This document shows, piece after piece, positions 12,803-40,722 of a DNA stretch of 64,000 nucleotides. Both the position numbers and the translations under genes were made by a program. Every line of letters begins with the position of its first letter. Position 1 is the first letter of the stretch. Source of the DNA: Streptococcus halotolerans (GTDB lineage: Bacteria > Bacillota > Bacilli > Lactobacillales > Streptococcaceae); NCBI RefSeq assembly GCF_001598035.1, contig NZ_CP014835.1, positions 372,001 to 436,000 on the forward strand, in the 5' to 3' direction. Under the pieces are notes generated by a model, which was not told where the DNA came from, searched no databases, and was given only the letters and a program-made list of their open reading frames with translations.

Positions 12803-12831
12803 TTGACAAGTCATTTTTATCATACTATACT
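12803..12831 (+). promoter_or_regulatory. promoter of the first attenuated transporter gene
   Basis: Consensus TTGACA (12803-12808), a 17-base spacer and TATACT (12826-12831). A matching arrangement, also 17 bases, is found before the second leader. Confidence 0.88.
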
Positions 12832-12863
12832 GGTAACCAATCATAAACAAAGGAGAATAAGAA

Positions 12864-12929
12864 ATGCTTTTAACTCAGTTATCTACTAGTAACCAGAATA
12901 CTTTCTTCAACTTTAGTTTCTTTAGATAG
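12864..12929 (+). CDS. Phe-rich leader peptide 1
   Basis: A 21-residue ORF after AAAGGAG reads MLLTQLSTSNQNT, then FFNFSFFR and stop. Five of the last eight residues are Phe and none is Tyr. It lies between a strong promoter and a chain of competing hairpins ending in a terminator before a transporter gene, the classical layout of translation-coupled attenuation. The last five codons (F-S-F-F-R and TAG) are identical at the DNA level to leader 2. Inference: ribosome stalling at Phe codons when charged tRNA-Phe is low permits read-through. Confidence 0.8.
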   Translation: MLLTQLSTSNQNTFFNFSFFR

Positions 12930-13106
12930 CCGTTTGTGTCTCTTAGGTACAAACGGTGCGCAGGTTTGTATCTATGAGGCTAAAGCATTTCGTTTTGACT
13001 TGGCTGATTAGATGATTATCTAACTGGTCAAGGGGAAACTTTTGATAAGTGGCTTTTGGGTTAAAGTCAGTGTAAACCAGTTAGAATTTTTCTAGCTGGT
13101 TTTTTG
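12930..13106 (+). promoter_or_regulatory. attenuator region 1
   Basis: CCGTTTGT (12930-12937) pairs with ACAAACGG (12949-12956) directly after the leader stop. The same ACAAAC can instead pair with GTTTGT (12964-12969), giving mutually exclusive folds. GGCTAAAG near 12979 can reach back to CTTTAG at the leader end. Downstream, TCTAACTGG (about 13019-13027) is complementary to CCAGTTAGA (13077-13085), which otherwise forms the terminator AACCAGTTAGA/TCTAGCTGGTT (13075-13101) with a T run. No T-box consensus (TGGNACCGCG) is present. Pairings are by eye. Confidence 0.72.
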
Positions 13107-13188
13107 GTTATGACGATAATGTTCTGGATTTTTAGGCTGGTAATCCTAAATCCTAATAGCTGATTCAAGTGATTTGGAGGATTTTAAA

Positions 13189-14154
13189 ATGAAAAAAATA
13201 TGGAAAACAGTTGCTACGCTTGGAGCTGCAACACTTTTATTAGCCGCTTGTTCTCAATCAGGAGACAAGAATGGTACAAAAGAAATGCCTAACGTTGGGA
13301 TTTTACAGTATGTCGAGCATGAGTCTCTTACAGCAGCACGCAAGGGATTTGAGAAAGGGTTAGCAGAAGAAGGATACAAGGAGGGCAAAAACATCAACAT
13401 TTCTTATGAAAATGCTCAAGGCGATCAAGCCAATCTTCAGTCTATCTCTGAAAAATTGGTTTCTGATAATGATTTGGTTCTAGGGATTGCTACACCAGCT
13501 GCTCAGTCTTTGGTGGCAGCATCTTCAGATACGCCCATCTTATTTACTGCGGTAACAGATCCAGTCTCTGCTAAATTAGTTAAAAGTATGAAGAATCCGG
13601 CCGGTATGGCAACAGGTACTAGCGATATGTCACCAATTGATAAGCAAGTGCAATTGGTCAAAGAAGTTCTTCCAGATGCTAAAAAGGTTGGTATCATGTA
13701 TACAACGGGTGAACGTAATTCAGAAGTTCAAGTGAAGCAAGCTGAAAAACTCTTTAAAAAAGCAGGAATCAAGGTCATTTCAAAAGGTATTTCGTCAACC
13801 AATGATGTACAAGATACTGCTAAAAGTTTGATGAAAGCTGTCGATGTCATTTTCGTACCAACGGACAATACCATTGCTAGTGCAGTAACGCTTTTAGGCG
13901 ACTTATCGAAAGAAACCAAGGTGCCTGTTGTTGGTGGATCCGCTGACATGGTTAAGGGTGGTGTGCTCTTCTCGTATGGGCCAGATTACGAAAAATTGGG
14001 TGAGCAGACCGCTAAATTAGCGGTCAAGATCATTGAGGGAAAAGATGTTGCTAAGATTTCTGCAGAATACCCAGAGGCGTTAACGGTAGCGGTCAATGAC
14101 AACATGGCAAAAGCGTTAAATATCGATGTTTCAGGCATCAAAAAAGAAAAATAA
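13189..14154 (+). CDS. ABC transporter substrate-binding lipoprotein 1 (TrpX-like)
   Basis: The 321-residue protein begins with a lipoprotein signal peptide ending LLLAAC-SQSG (lipid Cys about 22) and then the PF04392-type binding domain: VGILQYVEHESLTAARKGFEKGL, DLVLGIATPAAQSL, FTAVTDPVSAKLV, VGIMYTTGERNSEVQV, VPTDNTIASAV. Such proteins bind aromatic amino acids for TrpXYZ importers. The start at 13189 follows TTGGAGG; an ATG at 13174 overlaps that site. It has its own promoter and Phe-rich attenuator and is paralogous to the gene at 14682. Substrate preference is inferred only from the leader. Confidence 0.88.
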   Translation: MKKIWKTVATLGAATLLLAACSQSGDKNGTKEMPNVGILQYVEHESLTAARKGFEKGLAEEGYKEGKNINISYENAQGDQANLQSISEKLVSDNDLVLGIATPAAQSLVAASSDTPILFTAVTDPVSAKLVKSMKNPAGMATGTSDMSPIDKQVQLVKEVLPDAKKVGIMYTTGERNSEVQVKQAEKLFKKAGIKVISKGISSTNDVQDTAKSLMKAVDVIFVPTDNTIASAVTLLGDLSKETKVPVVGGSADMVKGGVLFSYGPDYEKLGEQTAKLAVKIIEGKDVAKISAEYPEALTVAVNDNMAKALNIDVSGIKKEK

Positions 14155-14338
14155 GGAACTTTGTCCAAGTTTTGTGCAAAAAATAGAGATGATTGCAACA
14201 AAAAAAGAACGATTATTGAAAAAATACCAAAGATTCCATTAGTATCCTTCTTTTTAGGTAACGATTATGGCGATAAGGTACTAAAGCTAGTTATTAGTGA
14301 GAAAGTATAATATTTTTGAATTATTCAGAAAAAACAAC

Positions 14339-14367
14339 TTGACAAAGTCATTTCTTTAAGATAAACT
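14339..14367 (+). promoter_or_regulatory. promoter of the second attenuated transporter gene
   Basis: TTGACA (14339-14344), a 17-base spacer and TAAACT (14362-14367), paralogous in layout and partly in spacer sequence to the promoter at 12803. Confidence 0.82.
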
Positions 14368-14398
14368 TAGAACCATCATAAAACAAGGAGAAAGAAAT

Positions 14399-14467
14399 AT
14401 GTTACGACAAACGTCTGCCATTATGGCTCAAGCAAACTCATATTATTACTTTAGTTTCTTTAGATAG
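14399..14467 (+). CDS. Tyr/Phe-rich leader peptide 2
   Basis: A 22-residue ORF after CAAGGAG reads MLRQTSAIMAQANS, then YYYFSFFR and stop. Three consecutive Tyr codons replace the FFN of leader 1, while the FSFFR-stop ending is conserved codon for codon. The N-terminal halves of the two leaders are unrelated, so selection seems to act on the aromatic block and the overlapping RNA structure. This suggests the second unit answers to tyrosine (with phenylalanine) and the first to phenylalanine alone. Confidence 0.8.
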   Translation: MLRQTSAIMAQANSYYYFSFFR

Positions 14468-14636
14468 ACGTTTGTACCTTGTAGATACAAACGTTGCAAG
14501 TTTGTATCTATGAGGCTAAAGCATTTTTCGATTGTCGATAGCCGATTAGATGATATCAGTCTAAGCGGCTATTTTTAGGATTTAATGCATGCACCTAAAG
14601 AAAGCCGGTTGGACTATAGTCTAATCGGCTTTTTGT
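14467..14636 (+). promoter_or_regulatory. attenuator region 2
   Basis: ACGTTTGTA...TACAAACGT (about 14468-14494) follows the leader stop. The ACAAAC strand can alternatively pair with the next GTTTGT, in a block (GTTTGTATCTATGAGGCTAAAGCA) also present in attenuator 1. Two terminator-like hairpins follow: AGCCGATTAGA/AGTCTAAGCGGCT with ATTTTT (about 14540-14576) and AGCCGGTTGGACT/AGTCTAATCGGCT with TTTTTG (about 14602-14635). The 3' arm of the first is complementary to the 5' arm of the second, so antitermination is possible. Confidence 0.72.
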
Positions 14637-14681: not shown

Positions 14682-15644
14682 ATGACAAATCGATTTAAAA
14701 TAATGGTTGGTATTGTAGCGGCAAGTCTTTTGTTAACAGGGTGTTCTCAGTCTTCTGAGAAGGCCGATAAAGACGTCAAACATATTGGTATCTTACAATA
14801 CGTCGAATTTGAAACCTTAGACGTTGCGCGTGAAGGATTTGTAGACGAGTTGGCGAAAAAAGGCTACAAAGATGGCAAGAATATTGTGATTGATTACCAA
14901 AATTCACAAGGTGATCAAGCTAATCTGCAAAGCATTTCGGAAAAATTGGTCAAAGACAATGACTTGGTTCTAGGGATTGCCACTCCAGCAGCCCAAGCTC
15001 TAACAACAGCTTCCTCAGAAGTACCGATTACCTTTACAGCTGTGACGGATCCTCTTTCGGCTAAGCTGGTTAAAAGTATGAAAAAACCTGGCACTAATGC
15101 AACAGGAACTATTGATATGGCACCAACTAAAGAACGCGTTGCTCTTTTGAAAAAGGTAATGCCAAACTTGAAAAAAGTGGGCATTATGTACACGACTAAT
15201 GAACGTAACTCAGAGGTACAAGTCAAGGAAGCTAAAAAAGTTTTTAAAAGAGAAGGCATTAAAGTGGTTACCAAAGGGATTTCATCAACCAATGATGTTC
15301 AAGATACAGCACGTTCTCTAATGAACCAAACAGAAGTGCTTTACATGCCAACGGATAACTTAATTGATAGCTCAATCACCCTTGTGACCGATTTATCTAA
15401 GGAAATGAAAATTCCAGTGTACGCGGCCAATGCAGACTTGGTTGAAAAAGGAGCGCTCTTCTCGTACGGACCAGACTTTGAAGCCTTAGGGCGTCAAACA
15501 GCACGCCAAGCCGTAAAAATCTTAGAAGGGAAAAAAGTTTCCCAAGTACCAGTGGAAGCTCCTGAAAATCTGACGGTTAAAGTTAATGATGAAATGGCTA
15601 AACTTTTGAAGATTGACATGTCAGCAGTGAAAGACAAAAAATAA
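14682..15644 (+). CDS. ABC transporter substrate-binding lipoprotein 2 (TrpX-like)
   Basis: The 320-residue paralogue of the 13189 gene has a signal peptide ending LLLTGC-SQSS and the same binding-domain landmarks (HIGILQYVEFETLDVAREGF, DLVLGIATPAAQALT, FTAVTDPLSAKLV, VGIMYTTNERNSEVQV, MPTDNLIDSSITL). Two ATG codons follow AAAGGAG; the second at 14682 has the better spacing. It precedes the only permease gene by 22 bases, so it is the core binding protein, while copy 1 is an extra binding protein that must share the same permease. It carries its own Tyr/Phe-type attenuator. Confidence 0.88.
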   Translation: MTNRFKIMVGIVAASLLLTGCSQSSEKADKDVKHIGILQYVEFETLDVAREGFVDELAKKGYKDGKNIVIDYQNSQGDQANLQSISEKLVKDNDLVLGIATPAAQALTTASSEVPITFTAVTDPLSAKLVKSMKKPGTNATGTIDMAPTKERVALLKKVMPNLKKVGIMYTTNERNSEVQVKEAKKVFKREGIKVVTKGISSTNDVQDTARSLMNQTEVLYMPTDNLIDSSITLVTDLSKEMKIPVYAANADLVEKGALFSYGPDFEALGRQTARQAVKILEGKKVSQVPVEAPENLTVKVNDEMAKLLKIDMSAVKDKK

Positions 15645-15666: not shown

Positions 15667-16563
15667 ATGTTGGATATTGTATTATCAAGTATTTCTCAAG
15701 GGCTTCTTTGGTCAATTATGGCTATTGGGGTCTTCATAACTTTCCGTATTTTGGATATTGCGGATTTGTCAGCGGAGGGTGCCTTTCCAATGGGAGCTGC
15801 GGTAGCATCAGTTGGCATTCTTAATGGTTGGCACCCTATTTTAGCAACGCTTGCTGGTTTAGCTGGTGGTATGCTTGTTGGTCTGGTGGCTGGTTTCCTA
15901 CATACCAAGATGAACATCCCACCCTTGTTGACAGGGATTATCACCTTAACAGGATTATACTCAACAAACCTTCTGGTGATGGGGCGCTCAAACGTCTCAC
16001 TGTCCATGCAAAAGACTTTGGTGACGATGTTCCAAGAGATGGGACTTGATAAAACTTACGCTGTCATTCTTATTGGTGTGATTTTTATTGCCTTGGTTAT
16101 CTTGTCTCTCATGCTTTTATTGAATACACAGTTAGGACTTTCGCTGCGTGCGACAGGTGATAATATCGATATGGGGCAGGCTAATGGGATTAACGTTAAT
16201 CAGATGAAAGTCCTTGGCTATATGATTGGTAATGGCTTGATTGCTCTCTCTGGTGCTCTTTTAGCCCAAAATAATGGCTACGCTGACCTTAATATGGGTG
16301 TAGGTACTATTATCATTGGTTTGGCATCCGTTATTTTGGCAGAAGTCATCATCAAGCACCTATCACTTGGTAAGCGGCTCCTTTCTATCGTTTTGGGTTC
16401 GGTCATCTATCGTTTGATTATCGTGGTTATTTTAACGGCTAATGTCGATGCGCAAATGATCAAATTGGTATCTGCAGTTCTTCTTGCTATCATTTTATAC
16501 ATTCCAGAAATTCGCTCAAAACTTGGGATTAAAGCTTCAAAATCACTAACGGAGGAAAACTAA
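15667..16563 (+). CDS. ABC transporter permease (TrpY-like)
   Basis: The 298-residue integral membrane protein has about eight hydrophobic segments and belongs to the branched-chain-type permeases (BPD_transp_2, LivH-like) that pair with PF04392 binding proteins. Landmarks are FRILDIADLSAEGAFPMGAA near the N-terminus and LRATGDNIDMGQANGIN in the central loop, the expected ATPase contact. It forms the channel for the lipoproteins encoded upstream. The ATPase gene begins one base past its stop codon. Confidence 0.9.
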   Translation: MLDIVLSSISQGLLWSIMAIGVFITFRILDIADLSAEGAFPMGAAVASVGILNGWHPILATLAGLAGGMLVGLVAGFLHTKMNIPPLLTGIITLTGLYSTNLLVMGRSNVSLSMQKTLVTMFQEMGLDKTYAVILIGVIFIALVILSLMLLLNTQLGLSLRATGDNIDMGQANGINVNQMKVLGYMIGNGLIALSGALLAQNNGYADLNMGVGTIIIGLASVILAEVIIKHLSLGKRLLSIVLGSVIYRLIIVVILTANVDAQMIKLVSAVLLAIILYIPEIRSKLGIKASKSLTEEN

Positions 16564-16564
16564 T

Positions 16565-17368
16565 ATGTCTTTACTGAGTCTACGAAATGTTCATAAAATT
16601 TTTGAAAAAGGAACAATCAATGAAAATCATGTGCTTCGCGGTTTAGATTTAGAAGTTGAAGAAGGTGATTTCATCTCTATTATCGGTGGTAATGGTGCTG
16701 GTAAGTCAACGCTTCTTAATACCATTGCGGGTGTTGTTCCAATGGATGAGGGAGATATTTCGCTTAATGGTAAATCTATCAAGAAAGATTCTGTCGCAAC
16801 TCGCTCAAAGCATATCAGTCGTGTTTTTCAAGACCCTCGTATGGGAACAGCCACTAATTTGACGATTGAAGAAAATATGGCGATTGCTTACCTTCGTGGT
16901 AAAAAACGTAGCATTTTCAAAAAAGCTGTTACGGATAAAGAACGTCAGATTTTCAAAGGGGCTTTAAAAGAGTTAGGTCTTGGTTTAGAAAACCGCATGA
17001 AGACTGATGCTGGTTTCTTATCAGGTGGGCAACGTCAAGCGCTGACGCTTTCTATGGCAACTCTTGTTCGACCTGATATGTTACTTTTGGATGAACACAT
17101 TGCGGCCCTTGACCCCAAAACGAGTGATATGGTTATGGCTTTAACTGAGAAAGTGGTTGAAGAACATGCCCTTACAACACTTATGATTACTCACAATATG
17201 GAACATGCGATCGCGTATGGCAATCGTCTTGTTATGCTTTATCAGGGTAAAATTGTTGTGGATGTTAAGGGAAAGGAAAAGAAAAATCTTACTGTGTCAC
17301 AACTGATGGATCTTTTCCATAAAAATTCTGGTCAAATACTCAATGACGATGCGCTTGTATTAGGATAA
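16565..17368 (+). CDS. ABC transporter ATP-binding protein (TrpZ-like)
   Basis: The 267-residue ATPase powers the aromatic amino-acid importer. It has Walker A GGNGAGKST, signature LSGGQRQ (in AGFLSGGQRQALTLSMA), Walker B MLLLDE and the switch histidine in MITHN. The D-loop reads HIAALDPKT with His replacing the usual Pro after DE, a change common in this subfamily. It is the last gene of the cluster and ends before a long hairpin terminator. Confidence 0.92.
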   Translation: MSLLSLRNVHKIFEKGTINENHVLRGLDLEVEEGDFISIIGGNGAGKSTLLNTIAGVVPMDEGDISLNGKSIKKDSVATRSKHISRVFQDPRMGTATNLTIEENMAIAYLRGKKRSIFKKAVTDKERQIFKGALKELGLGLENRMKTDAGFLSGGQRQALTLSMATLVRPDMLLLDEHIAALDPKTSDMVMALTEKVVEEHALTTLMITHNMEHAIAYGNRLVMLYQGKIVVDVKGKEKKNLTVSQLMDLFHKNSGQILNDDALVLG

Positions 17369-19096: not shown

Positions 19097-19875
19097 TCAA
19101 CCGATCACTCGCCTAGCCATGGGGGTTTGATAATTGAGACTGCCGTGAATGCGATGATGATTCCACCAGTGGACGTAGTCCTTGGTTTTAAGATTTAGTT
19201 CTTCAAGCGAATGAAAGATTTCTTGATTAATAAACTCAATTTTGAAGGAACGATAAGTATTTTCAGCCACGGCATTGTCATAAGGACAGCCTGCTTGACT
19301 AAGTGAACGGGTGATACCGAATGCTCCTAACACCTCATCAATCAGCTGATTATCAAACTCCTTACCACGATCAGAATGGAAAAGATTGACCTTGGTAGGG
19401 CATAAGGGATACTCTGAATCGCTTGCTTTACGAGCTCTGCGGTCTTCTGCCAACCGACTGACAGACCAATAATTTCACGATTATAGAGGTCTATTATCAA
19501 GCAAACATAAGCCCAGCGCTTACCAACACGGACATAAGTTAAGTCTGTTACAATCGCTTCAAGTGGCCTTTTTCGATTGAATTGTCTGGCTAAGCGATTT
19601 GGAATGGGTGCTTCATTTTTCCCTTTAGAATGCGACTTGAAGGTAGTCTGCTGGTAAACAGATACGAGATTCCATCGCTTCATGATCCGACGAATGCGAC
19701 GACGAGACAAGAGGATTCCTTCTGTTTCCAGACATTTCTTGATCTTTCGAGCACCATATCTAGATTTGTTCTCAAGGAAAATCTGCTTAACTTTTTCTTC
19801 AAGCTCTGTTTCCGATACTGGCTCTATGGCTTTGTAGTAATAGCTAGAACGAGGGAGGTTCAACCAACGACACAT
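19097..19875 (-). pseudogene. IS3-family orfB transposase with frameshift
   Basis: The N-terminal part (19875 down to about 19395) carries the HTH_21 region (YGARKIKKCLETEGILLSRR) and the first catalytic block AIVTDLTYVRVGKRWAYVCLIIDLYNREIIG. The C-terminal part, in another frame, carries VNLFHSDRGKEFDNQ and the glutamate region CPYDNAVAENTYRSFKIE. A one-base deletion near 19393-19400 separates them, so full-length transposase cannot be made. Normally orfB is expressed by a -1 frameshift from orfA; a slippery AAAAAGG occurs at the end of orfA. Confidence 0.85.
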
Positions 19876-19910
19876 GGCTGAAATGCTGTATTTATCCTTG
19901 TTAGCAGTGA

Positions 19911-20201
19911 TTATTTGCCTTTTTGTGCCATAATCACTGCCGCTTGCTTTAGGATGTCTAGCTGCATTTCGAATTCTTTATTGCGTTTTCTAAAGGCTAT
20001 TAGCTCCCGTTGGTCATCTGTTAGATTATCAACCGATTTGAAGGAACAAGTTGTTTTAGCTTGTCTCACCCATTTGTCAAAGGTTGAGGGGGTTAAATTA
20101 TATTCTTTGATGATTTCGCTACGTTTCATACCTGCATTGTGAAGGTCAACGATTTGTTGTTTAAAGTTATCTGTGAATTGACGACGTACTCTTCTAGACA
20201 T
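19911..20201 (-). CDS. IS3-family orfA
   Basis: The 96-residue protein starts MSRRVRRQFTDNFKQQIVDL and has a helix-turn-helix (AGMKRSEIIKEYNLTPSTFDKWVRQ) and a leucine-zipper-like helix (DDQRELIAFRKRNKEFEMQL), as in IS3 OrfA. The ATG at 20201 follows CAGGAGAAAT; an upstream start at 20234 is rejected. It ends AQKGK at an A-rich slippery site for frameshifting into orfB. Without intact orfB the element is immobile unless helped in trans. Confidence 0.85.
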   Translation of the reverse strand: MSRRVRRQFTDNFKQQIVDLHNAGMKRSEIIKEYNLTPSTFDKWVRQAKTTCSFKSVDNLTDDQRELIAFRKRNKEFEMQLDILKQAAVIMAQKGK

Positions 20202-20346
20202 ACATTTCTCCTGTTTTTGATTACTATAGAACACTTTATAAATTCTGTCTAGTTTAGTGTAACCGATTCAAAAGTTTAAATTGAAATCATGAGTAGTCTC
20301 ACTAGATAGTGGCGCAAGTACAATTCCACAGAACGAGAAGATAACA

Positions 20347-40254: not shown

Positions 40255-40722
40255 ATGATGTTTTCCTAAAACGCATCTTGCTCTGTTAGAGGCGACACGC
40301 TAGAGTCATCAATTAGACAGGTGATTCAGAATGTAGACCAACCTTCTCGGACAGAGTAGTCTCAAGGCATTGACCTTTACATTATTAACTAAAAAAGATT
40401 GAAAAAATTGCCTCAGATTTGTTGTTTCTTCAACCTCCACCGTTCTTTTGACGAATGGGTGCTTATCTCATCACTAAAATAAAAAGTACCGATTCGGTAC
40501 TCACTTTAGTCAAGTTGATGAAGGACTAGCCTTAGTTTGCCTTACTGTCTTGCTCCGGATGGTTCCAAAATCAAGGGCTTTTCTAGTCGCATAAGTTTTT
40601 GGAGTTAGCGTTATGTTGTTTCCAATTTCTGTTTTCTCCAGTGTAGAACACTTTATAAATACTGTCTAGATTAGTGTAACCGATTTATGATTTTTGGTGC
40701 TAAAGTGGTGCTAATGACAAAA
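40255..40722. other. intergenic stretch with element remnants next to guaA
   Basis: No gene. It holds a near-perfect palindrome AGTACCGATTCGGTACT (about 40486-40502) of the TetR-operator kind without a nearby TetR gene. It also holds a solo copy of the IS3 end (about 40638-40687, closely matching 20224-20268) and a tandem GGTGCTAA at 40696-40703 and 40707-40714 of the kind seen at integrase/attachment borders. The 3' end of guaA is a known island integration site. Confidence 0.5.

Follow-up and report, generated by a model that had tools for sequence, protein, structure and literature searches.

Predicted leader-peptide attenuators for aromatic amino acids upstream of two TrpX-like binding-protein genes of Streptococcus halotolerans belong to a family present in much of the Lactobacillales

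A stretch of 64,000 nucleotides (nt) from the 2.18-Mb genome of Streptococcus halotolerans (G000:C1:372001-436000; the window, to which unlabeled positions refer) contains two short open reading frames (ORFs) rich in aromatic codons, in the order leader 1, binding protein 1 (BP1), leader 2, binding protein 2 (BP2), permease, and ATPase. Judged from sequence comparison, each leader is very probably a ribosome-operated transcription attenuator, and the two are members of a genuine family of leader-peptide attenuators for aromatic amino acids that extends over much of an order, the Lactobacillales. The control is of a known kind, that of the leader-peptide attenuators of the enterobacterial trp, pheA, pheST, and his operons, and it absorbs two orphan RNA families, the trpB motif (RF04312) and sRNA_2410 (RF02863). 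New here are a helix within the leader ORF (P0), a link between the two terminators (E:F), a version with tryptophan (Trp) codons, the identities of the two Rfam orphans, and the agreement between leader codons and binding pockets. We lean, with moderate confidence, toward a single chassis for phenylalanine (Phe), tyrosine (Tyr), and Trp with exchangeable codons in Lactobacillales (perhaps for histidine, His, outside them), with read-through only behind a stalled ribosome, a terminator relay, and the trpB motif and sRNA_2410 as the same device rather than a riboswitch and a small RNA.

The system runs on the plus strand from the start of promoter 1 (12803) to the end of the BP2 gene (15644), more widely than the 12864..14636 quoted in an earlier note on this DNA. 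The two ORFs described there are present, each with an ATG start and an AAGGAG ribosome site, read directly at 12850..12855 and 14385..14390. Leader peptide 1, MLLTQLSTSNQNTFFNFSFFR-stop (12864..12929), ends in FFNFSFFR-stop, every aromatic codon being Phe, and has a near-identical counterpart in locus L008 of Streptococcus thoraltensis; leader peptide 2, MLRQTSAIMAQANSYYYFSFFR-stop (14399..14467), ends in YYYFSFFR-stop, three Tyr codons preceding three Phe codons. The six final codons, stop included (TTTAGTTTCTTTAGATAG), are identical between the two leaders, as the note had described, and among permease-linked leaders the N-terminal parts vary while the C terminus is conserved. The conserved downstream block reported there is likewise found, GTTTGTATCTATGAGGC being exact at 12964-12980 and 14500-14516. 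Allowing ≤3 mismatches, it has 5 matches in the window versus 0.16 expected, of which two are the reverse-complementary B segments (see below) and one (29364) is unrelated. The promoter pattern TTGACA-17-TATACT that the note had assigned to both leaders applies to promoter 1 (12803..12831, 11/12 consensus match); promoter 2 (14339..14367) is slightly off, reading TTGACA-17-TAAACT (10/12). Promoter-like matches in the region are not commoner than in shuffles (4 versus 6.5 on average); for terminator-like sites there is a slight excess (2 versus 0.9).

Seven segments, A to G, follow the leader ORF, and the RNA 3' of the stop codons is unusually stable (fold z of -7.39 for leader 1 and -8.83 for leader 2, with 0/200 shuffles equally stable). 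In leader 1, segment 0 lies inside the ORF (12911..12928) and forms the predicted helices P0 (12911-12918 with 12978-12985) and P0b (12923-12928 with 12969-12974), as indicated by pair counts in 51 leaders. Segment A (12930..12941), immediately 3' of the stop codon, has B as its partner; B (12946..12956) can pair with A or C; the hub C and C' (GTTTGTATCTATGAGGCTAAAG, 12964..12985) with B, D, or the leader ORF; D (13000..13013) with C, as the antiterminator, or with E; and E (13018..13029), which has no U-run in this copy, with D or F. Segments F and G together form an intrinsic terminator (13074..13105), which the terminator scan places at 13074-13102. The corresponding parts of leader 2 are segment 0 (14449..14466; P0, 14449-14456 with 14514-14521; P0b, 14461-14466), A (14468..14478), B (14484..14494), C and C' (14500..14521), D (14540..14551), E with its U-run (14559..14576), the first terminator hairpin spanning 14540-14576, and F plus G (14599..14634), a second terminator whose F pairs with E too. 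T-box identity was considered for the two leaders and rejected: a search with the Rfam families gave no T-box match in the window, leaders included, in accord with the earlier reading, and none of the seven T-box-like matches outside the window reaches the cut-off. No further Phe/Tyr copy was found in this genome, the next match having an expectation value (E) of 0.9.

The leaders recur in relatives, one of the checks on which the earlier note had staked its proposal. A short ORF with ≥4 aromatic residues in eight precedes the binding-protein gene in 76/80 permease-linked loci; the loci that fail are L025, L050, L066, and L075, the gene lying at a contig edge in the last two. An alignment (A1) was made of 51 leaders, from which near-copies of the Streptococcus mitis/parasanguinis type and some others were omitted, as was L085, whose C block was not matched by the search pattern. 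Aromatic codons occupy position -7 in 51/51 leaders, -6 in 46, -5 in 48, -3 in 51, and -2 in 48/49; further upstream, they fall to 12/51 at -8 and 0/51 at -9. At codon -7, a position not included in P0, all 51 leaders encode Phe or Tyr, with mixed synonymous codons. The rival hairpins and the terminators proposed earlier are also borne out, with terminators at both window copies and the alternative helices kept across the alignment: A:B is paired in 92.8 and 99.5% of cells, B:C in 98.9%, D:E in 86.1%, and C:D in 86.6%, versus only 26-46% when the partners were slid by 1-3 columns as a control.

The helix P0 is, on the evidence of the alignment, formed within the leader ORF itself, where codons -6 to -3 pair with the bases after C, and is a rival of B and D for the hub. 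It is paired in 97.0% of cells, with 5/8 pairs changed on both sides; one pair occurs as UA 23, AU 22, UG 3, CG 2, and GU 1 times and is broken in 0. P0b, which joins the last codon (AGA or GGA) and the stop to the middle of C, is paired in 90.5% of cells, one pair varying between AU (36) and GC (14), and the covariation score of P0 and P0b together is reached by 0/500 shuffles. The unusual leader L078 keeps P0, its Thr and Asp codons being matched downstream (read from the alignment). C:D has 20 double-change cells, above all 500 shuffles. Comparison supports the predicted ORF, its codon pattern, and helices 0:C, A:B, B:C, and D:E; for C:D, the predicted pairing is conserved and the covariation is weak. 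Three counts speak against the scheme: C:D covariation is the weakest of all, with 3/10 pairs changed on both sides, a number equalled by 395/500 shuffles; P0b has a double change at 1/6 pairs only; and the six double-changed pairs of P0 plus P0b are equalled by 126/500 shuffles.

A conserved C terminus behind a free N terminus is also what nascent-peptide arrest would produce, in which (aromatic)3-S/G-(aromatic)2-R/G-stop would halt the ribosome by its own sequence, perhaps aided by a small ligand, without starvation acting as the signal. This explanation is quite improbable, however, because the P0/P0b pairing would explain the fixed Ser/Gly and Arg/Gly codons at the level of RNA, because Phe, Tyr, and Trp interchange in step with the binding protein controlled, and because a leader outside the class (L175) has Asn-Asn-His at the hinge with the pairing kept (by eye).

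In the attenuation mechanism favored here, leader 1 would sense charged tRNA-Phe, and leader 2 charged tRNA-Tyr first and then tRNA-Phe. With ample aminoacyl-tRNA, the ribosome would reach the stop codon and cover A, B:C and D:E would form, and transcription would terminate. Under starvation, a ribosome stalled on the aromatic codons would cover segment 0 and leave A free, allowing A:B, C:D, and E:F, a state in which neither terminator would form and the binding-protein operon would be transcribed. With no ribosome, the leader RNA would pair with C through P0 and P0b around A:B, and the terminator would form again; read-through would therefore need a stalled, not merely absent, ribosome. From this arrangement we infer the sequence of events, where the ribosome sits, and how starvation is answered.

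Folding calculations bear on the proposal from both sides; the ribosome edges in them are an assumption, and in L037-L040, where the stop lies further downstream, the aligned TAG was used to position the stall. For RNA up to D, the mean probability of C:D in the 51 leaders is 0.47 with the ribosome stalled at -7, 0.21 with the ribosome at the stop, and 0.13 with no ribosome. On stalling, it rises by >0.2 in 29/51 leaders relative to the stop and in 26/51 relative to no ribosome, and falls by >0.2 in 0 relative to no ribosome. Other results count against a simple switch. Relative to the stop, the probability of C:D falls by >0.2 in 4/51 leaders, and once E is included, D:E is favored at equilibrium in every state (0.78, 0.64, and 0.78). 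The window leaders themselves do not switch at equilibrium because B:C is too strong and wins even when the ribosome is stalled; in leader 2, P0 is absent even without a ribosome; and C:D appears in the window only when A:B, which is transcribed first, is held. With A:B held, its probability is 0.75 and 0.73 in the two window leaders and 0.70 on average in all leaders, exceeding 0.5 in 41/51. Switching must therefore be kinetic in nature, as it is in other attenuators.

The least certain part of the mechanism is the relay, in which E:F pairing may switch both terminators jointly, as pairing energies suggest. Segment E pairs with the 5' arm of the second terminator at a mean of -13.5 kcal/mol versus -7.8 kcal/mol in shuffles (51 leaders; D and E taken from A1; shuffles preserving base composition only). 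The pairing is better than all 40 shuffles in 31/51 leaders and equalled by ≤2 shuffles in 38/51; in L014 and L017 it is no better than in shuffles, which counts against the relay.

The leader codons agree with the pocket residue predicted for the protein controlled. The solved structure closest to BP1 and BP2 is 6hni, that of the tyrosine-binding protein CD0873, in which Glu-263 holds the Tyr hydroxyl (OH); Ala stands there in Phe- and Trp-binding relatives, and in a Trp-binding relative Gln replaces Tyr-279 (PMC6816091). The comparison covered 94 proteins, and its counts include related rows; L033 and 11 Trp-led loci, 12 rows in all, were excluded because a complete gene could not be found in the stretch, and the residues of L013, L015, and L016, which are inconsistent (Ser versus Leu) and probably stem from misaligned long fused ORFs, were not relied on. 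Trp-led proteins have Gln at the Tyr-279 position in 15/15 cases. At the Tyr-OH position, proteins behind Phe-first leaders have Ala (13), Phe (5), or Ser (20), and those behind Tyr-first leaders have Asp (22), Asn (2), Thr (1), or Ser (16). In the window, BP1 (13189..14154, plus strand), behind the Phe leader, has Ser there and Tyr at the second pocket position, and BP2 (14682..15644, plus strand), behind the Tyr leader, has Asn and Phe, respectively. For loci with Tyr plus Phe leaders of the Streptococcus suis type, tandem Asp and Ser proteins lie downstream in 11/12, the exception being L033.

The earlier note had proposed separate Phe and Tyr sensing by the two leaders, a claim that is supported, with qualifications. 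Several observations tell against it, the first three of which also fit the alternative that attenuation is real and both leaders answer a general shortage of aromatic amino acids, with no separation of Phe from Tyr. Leader 2 is not Tyr-only, since three Phe codons follow its three Tyr codons; 57/94 leaders are classed as mixed; the BP1 leader of the close relative L009 (L009_1, YFYF) is mixed; Ser-type proteins occur behind either leader type (20 Phe-first and 16 Tyr-first); and in L008 Asn is present only in the second protein behind the Tyr leader, the first one having Ser. General shortage is nevertheless a doubtful explanation, since non-Ser proteins, sorted according to the first sensor codon, divide 25:0 and 0:18, and since Lactobacillaceae with separate leaders have Ala behind a pure Phe leader in 6/6 cases and Asp behind a pure Tyr leader in 7/7, in any gene order. 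Separate control is supported because, in this independent case, pure leaders match the residue at the Tyr-OH position. The Lactobacillaceae Tyr-led proteins, with two Tyr-first mixed ones, form one clade (9 rows, 99/99); a single clade of the Phe-led proteins was not recovered in the same tree. The S. thoraltensis locus (L008, 2322-6463) has three binding proteins and two leaders, and no leader was found before the third.

The spread of the element was examined with a model (R1) built from the 51 leaders, matches being counted at E ≤0.001. It matches 269/395 Lactobacillales genomes in 64/80 genera, by which confinement to the lineage of the window is rejected, and 5/398 genomes of a phylum-wide draw, three of the five being Lactobacillales. 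One match (G536) looks like a plain terminator and was set aside. Downstream genes were read in 40 hand-chosen stretches, multi-copy genomes being favored and one stretch being without a copy; 41 strong copies were examined and 8 weak opposite-strand matches dropped. Binding proteins of the BP1/BP2 family follow 28/41 copies, and because the stretches were hand-chosen the resulting 28:13 split is not a census. Shikimate dehydrogenase, over the aroE cut-off, follows 9/41, and DAHP synthase, over its curated cut-off, 2/41; the copy in L155 precedes an aroB-like protein, well under cut-off, and that in L163 a family-3 solute-binding protein. The controlled genes would handle the amino acids encoded by the sensor codons of their leaders, the ligands being predicted.

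A version with Trp codons was found upstream of TrpX genes. The trpX gene of this genome is preceded by the leader MTTPITLWQSWRR-stop, with matching B and C segments, and 29/70 TrpX upstream regions (the 30 best-scoring and 40 chosen among the matches listed) pass a strict filter for a W-Q/R-x-W leader. At E ≤0.001, 40 TrpX genes divide into 14 with a T-box, 19 with the trpB motif, 7 with neither, and 0 with both, 2/14 T-box and 12/19 trpB-motif matches being under gathering. The stop of a Trp-codon ORF lies about 10-34 nt upstream of the trpB motif in 22/22 loci, namely the 19 from the TrpX set and L095, L178, and L207. Of six further places with the motif, four have a Trp-codon ORF (L250, L252, L254, and L256); the other two, both under gathering, have His codons (L257) and Phe codons (L261, the place of L175). 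The motif was matched in 10/299 genomes of a class-wide draw, nine of them Lactobacillales, and in 3/398 of the phylum-wide draw. In 36 Trp leaders, the ORF pairs with C at a mean of -16.0 versus -8.1 kcal/mol in shuffles, 18/36 beating all 100 shuffles, and exchanging partners between two Trp-leader subtypes weakens the pairing to -9.4 and -13.7 kcal/mol.

The trpB motif has been put forward in print as a strong riboswitch candidate, its authors noting that neither a protein factor nor a classic attenuator could be excluded (PMC11109978). A metabolite riboswitch or a protein-binding RNA to which the ORF is incidental is highly improbable in light of the ORF at all 22 loci and its pairing with the C segment of the motif, and P0 of the Phe/Tyr class sits inside the ORF and covaries. 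With this ORF and this pairing, the trpB motif is most readily interpreted as the RNA part of a putative Trp attenuator in these bacteria, the same as the Trp version of the element; the available text of PMC11109978 proposes a riboswitch and makes no mention of a Trp-codon ORF. On RF04312 (gathering 59), L207, L178, L211, L214, and L218 exceed gathering, the own trpX leader scores 53.3 bits and window leader 2 scores 30.9 bits, both under it, and leader 1 is without a match among those listed.

Similarly, sRNA_2410 is, as its predicted fold indicates, the Phe/Tyr version of the element, with the same P0, P0b, and A:B. On RF02863 (gathering 61), the leader of a DAHP synthase gene (L136, 2550-2724) scores 73.7 bits, and the copies in the window stay below gathering, at 41.6 and 36.0 bits. 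In Enterococcus faecium, sRNA_2410 was reported as a 195-nt small RNA made as two transcripts (PMC5593968), rather than as the attenuator leader proposed here; two transcripts would fit two terminators.

Some trpB-motif places stand apart. L257 (G814:C19:14519-14626), in another order, scores 54.5 bits, under gathering, and its leader has four His codons (..FQFHHHHRFKGL-stop) and is followed by a hisZ-like gene (by eye); His may be a further amino acid served by this RNA core. At L175/L261 (G751:C31:23834-24011), the leader ..IQIFFNNHFR-stop precedes an NSS-type sodium symporter (by eye), and its P0 would be AATAACCAT with ATGGTTATT. L250 and L254 have Trp leaders (TWQNWHR and TWQNWQI) with the trpB motif away from the TrpX gene of these genomes, and no large ORF was found within 1.5 kb downstream.

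Lactobacillales-type bacteria are usually discussed in terms of T-boxes. Like the enterobacterial attenuators, the elements of the window type combine a short ORF with codons for the amino acid under control, alternative hairpins, and an intrinsic terminator; unlike them, they have a hub with three partners, a helix formed by the ORF, and two perhaps-linked terminators, and they belong to a single sequence family found throughout much of a bacterial order. In T-box leaders the RNA binds tRNA directly, unlike in the ribosome-operated window leaders. A leader-peptide attenuator for Leu has reportedly been found in a Firmicute, Staphylococcus aureus. The earlier note remarked that T-boxes are the usual choice of Firmicutes, which holds only in part, because leader-peptide attenuators have been reported or predicted in some of them: in Bacillus and Erysipelotrichales, a His leader peptide stands in place of a T-box (PMC2965389, PMC9413887), the enterobacterial his attenuator also being described in PMC9413887. 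The T-box of S. suis trpXYZ (PMC9382623) controls the same TrpX family with the same logic of read-through on uncharged tRNA. A candidate likened here by its description, uORFC-13-1, from Acholeplasma and environmental DNA with 24 representatives, likewise has a Phe-codon upstream ORF and a terminator before a shikimate-pathway gene, aroF (PMC8632094). Full-text searches of an open-access library, which covers neither subscription journals nor preprints, turned up no leader-peptide attenuator for Phe or Tyr from Lactobacillales, and an earlier description is possible. If the reading is true, two orphan Rfam RNAs, one of them a strong riboswitch candidate, gain a mechanism, and leader-peptide attenuation for Phe, Tyr, and Trp operates in bacteria usually linked with T-boxes. 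Leader codons may also predict the ligands of many TrpX-like importers for which the substrate is hard to tell by other means.

The genes downstream of the leaders are TrpX-like lipoprotein genes, as the note had stated, BP1 and BP2 scoring 333.3 and 325.5 bits on the TrpX equivalog NF041285, under its cut-off of 390; a separate TrpX gene elsewhere in the genome scores 453 bits. Common to BP1 and BP2 are an ABC permease (15667..16563, plus strand; NCBIfam matches below cut-off), 98% identical to its homologue at L008 in S. thoraltensis DSM 12221, and an ABC ATPase (16565..17368, plus strand; family matches below cut-off). Elsewhere in the window, an L10 leader lies at 313-449, the Streptococcus RNA Srn266 at 2819-2930, and a tracrRNA (RF02348) on the minus strand at 40479-40570. 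ORFs on the minus strand at 19097-20234 resemble a two-part IS3-type transposase (by eye).

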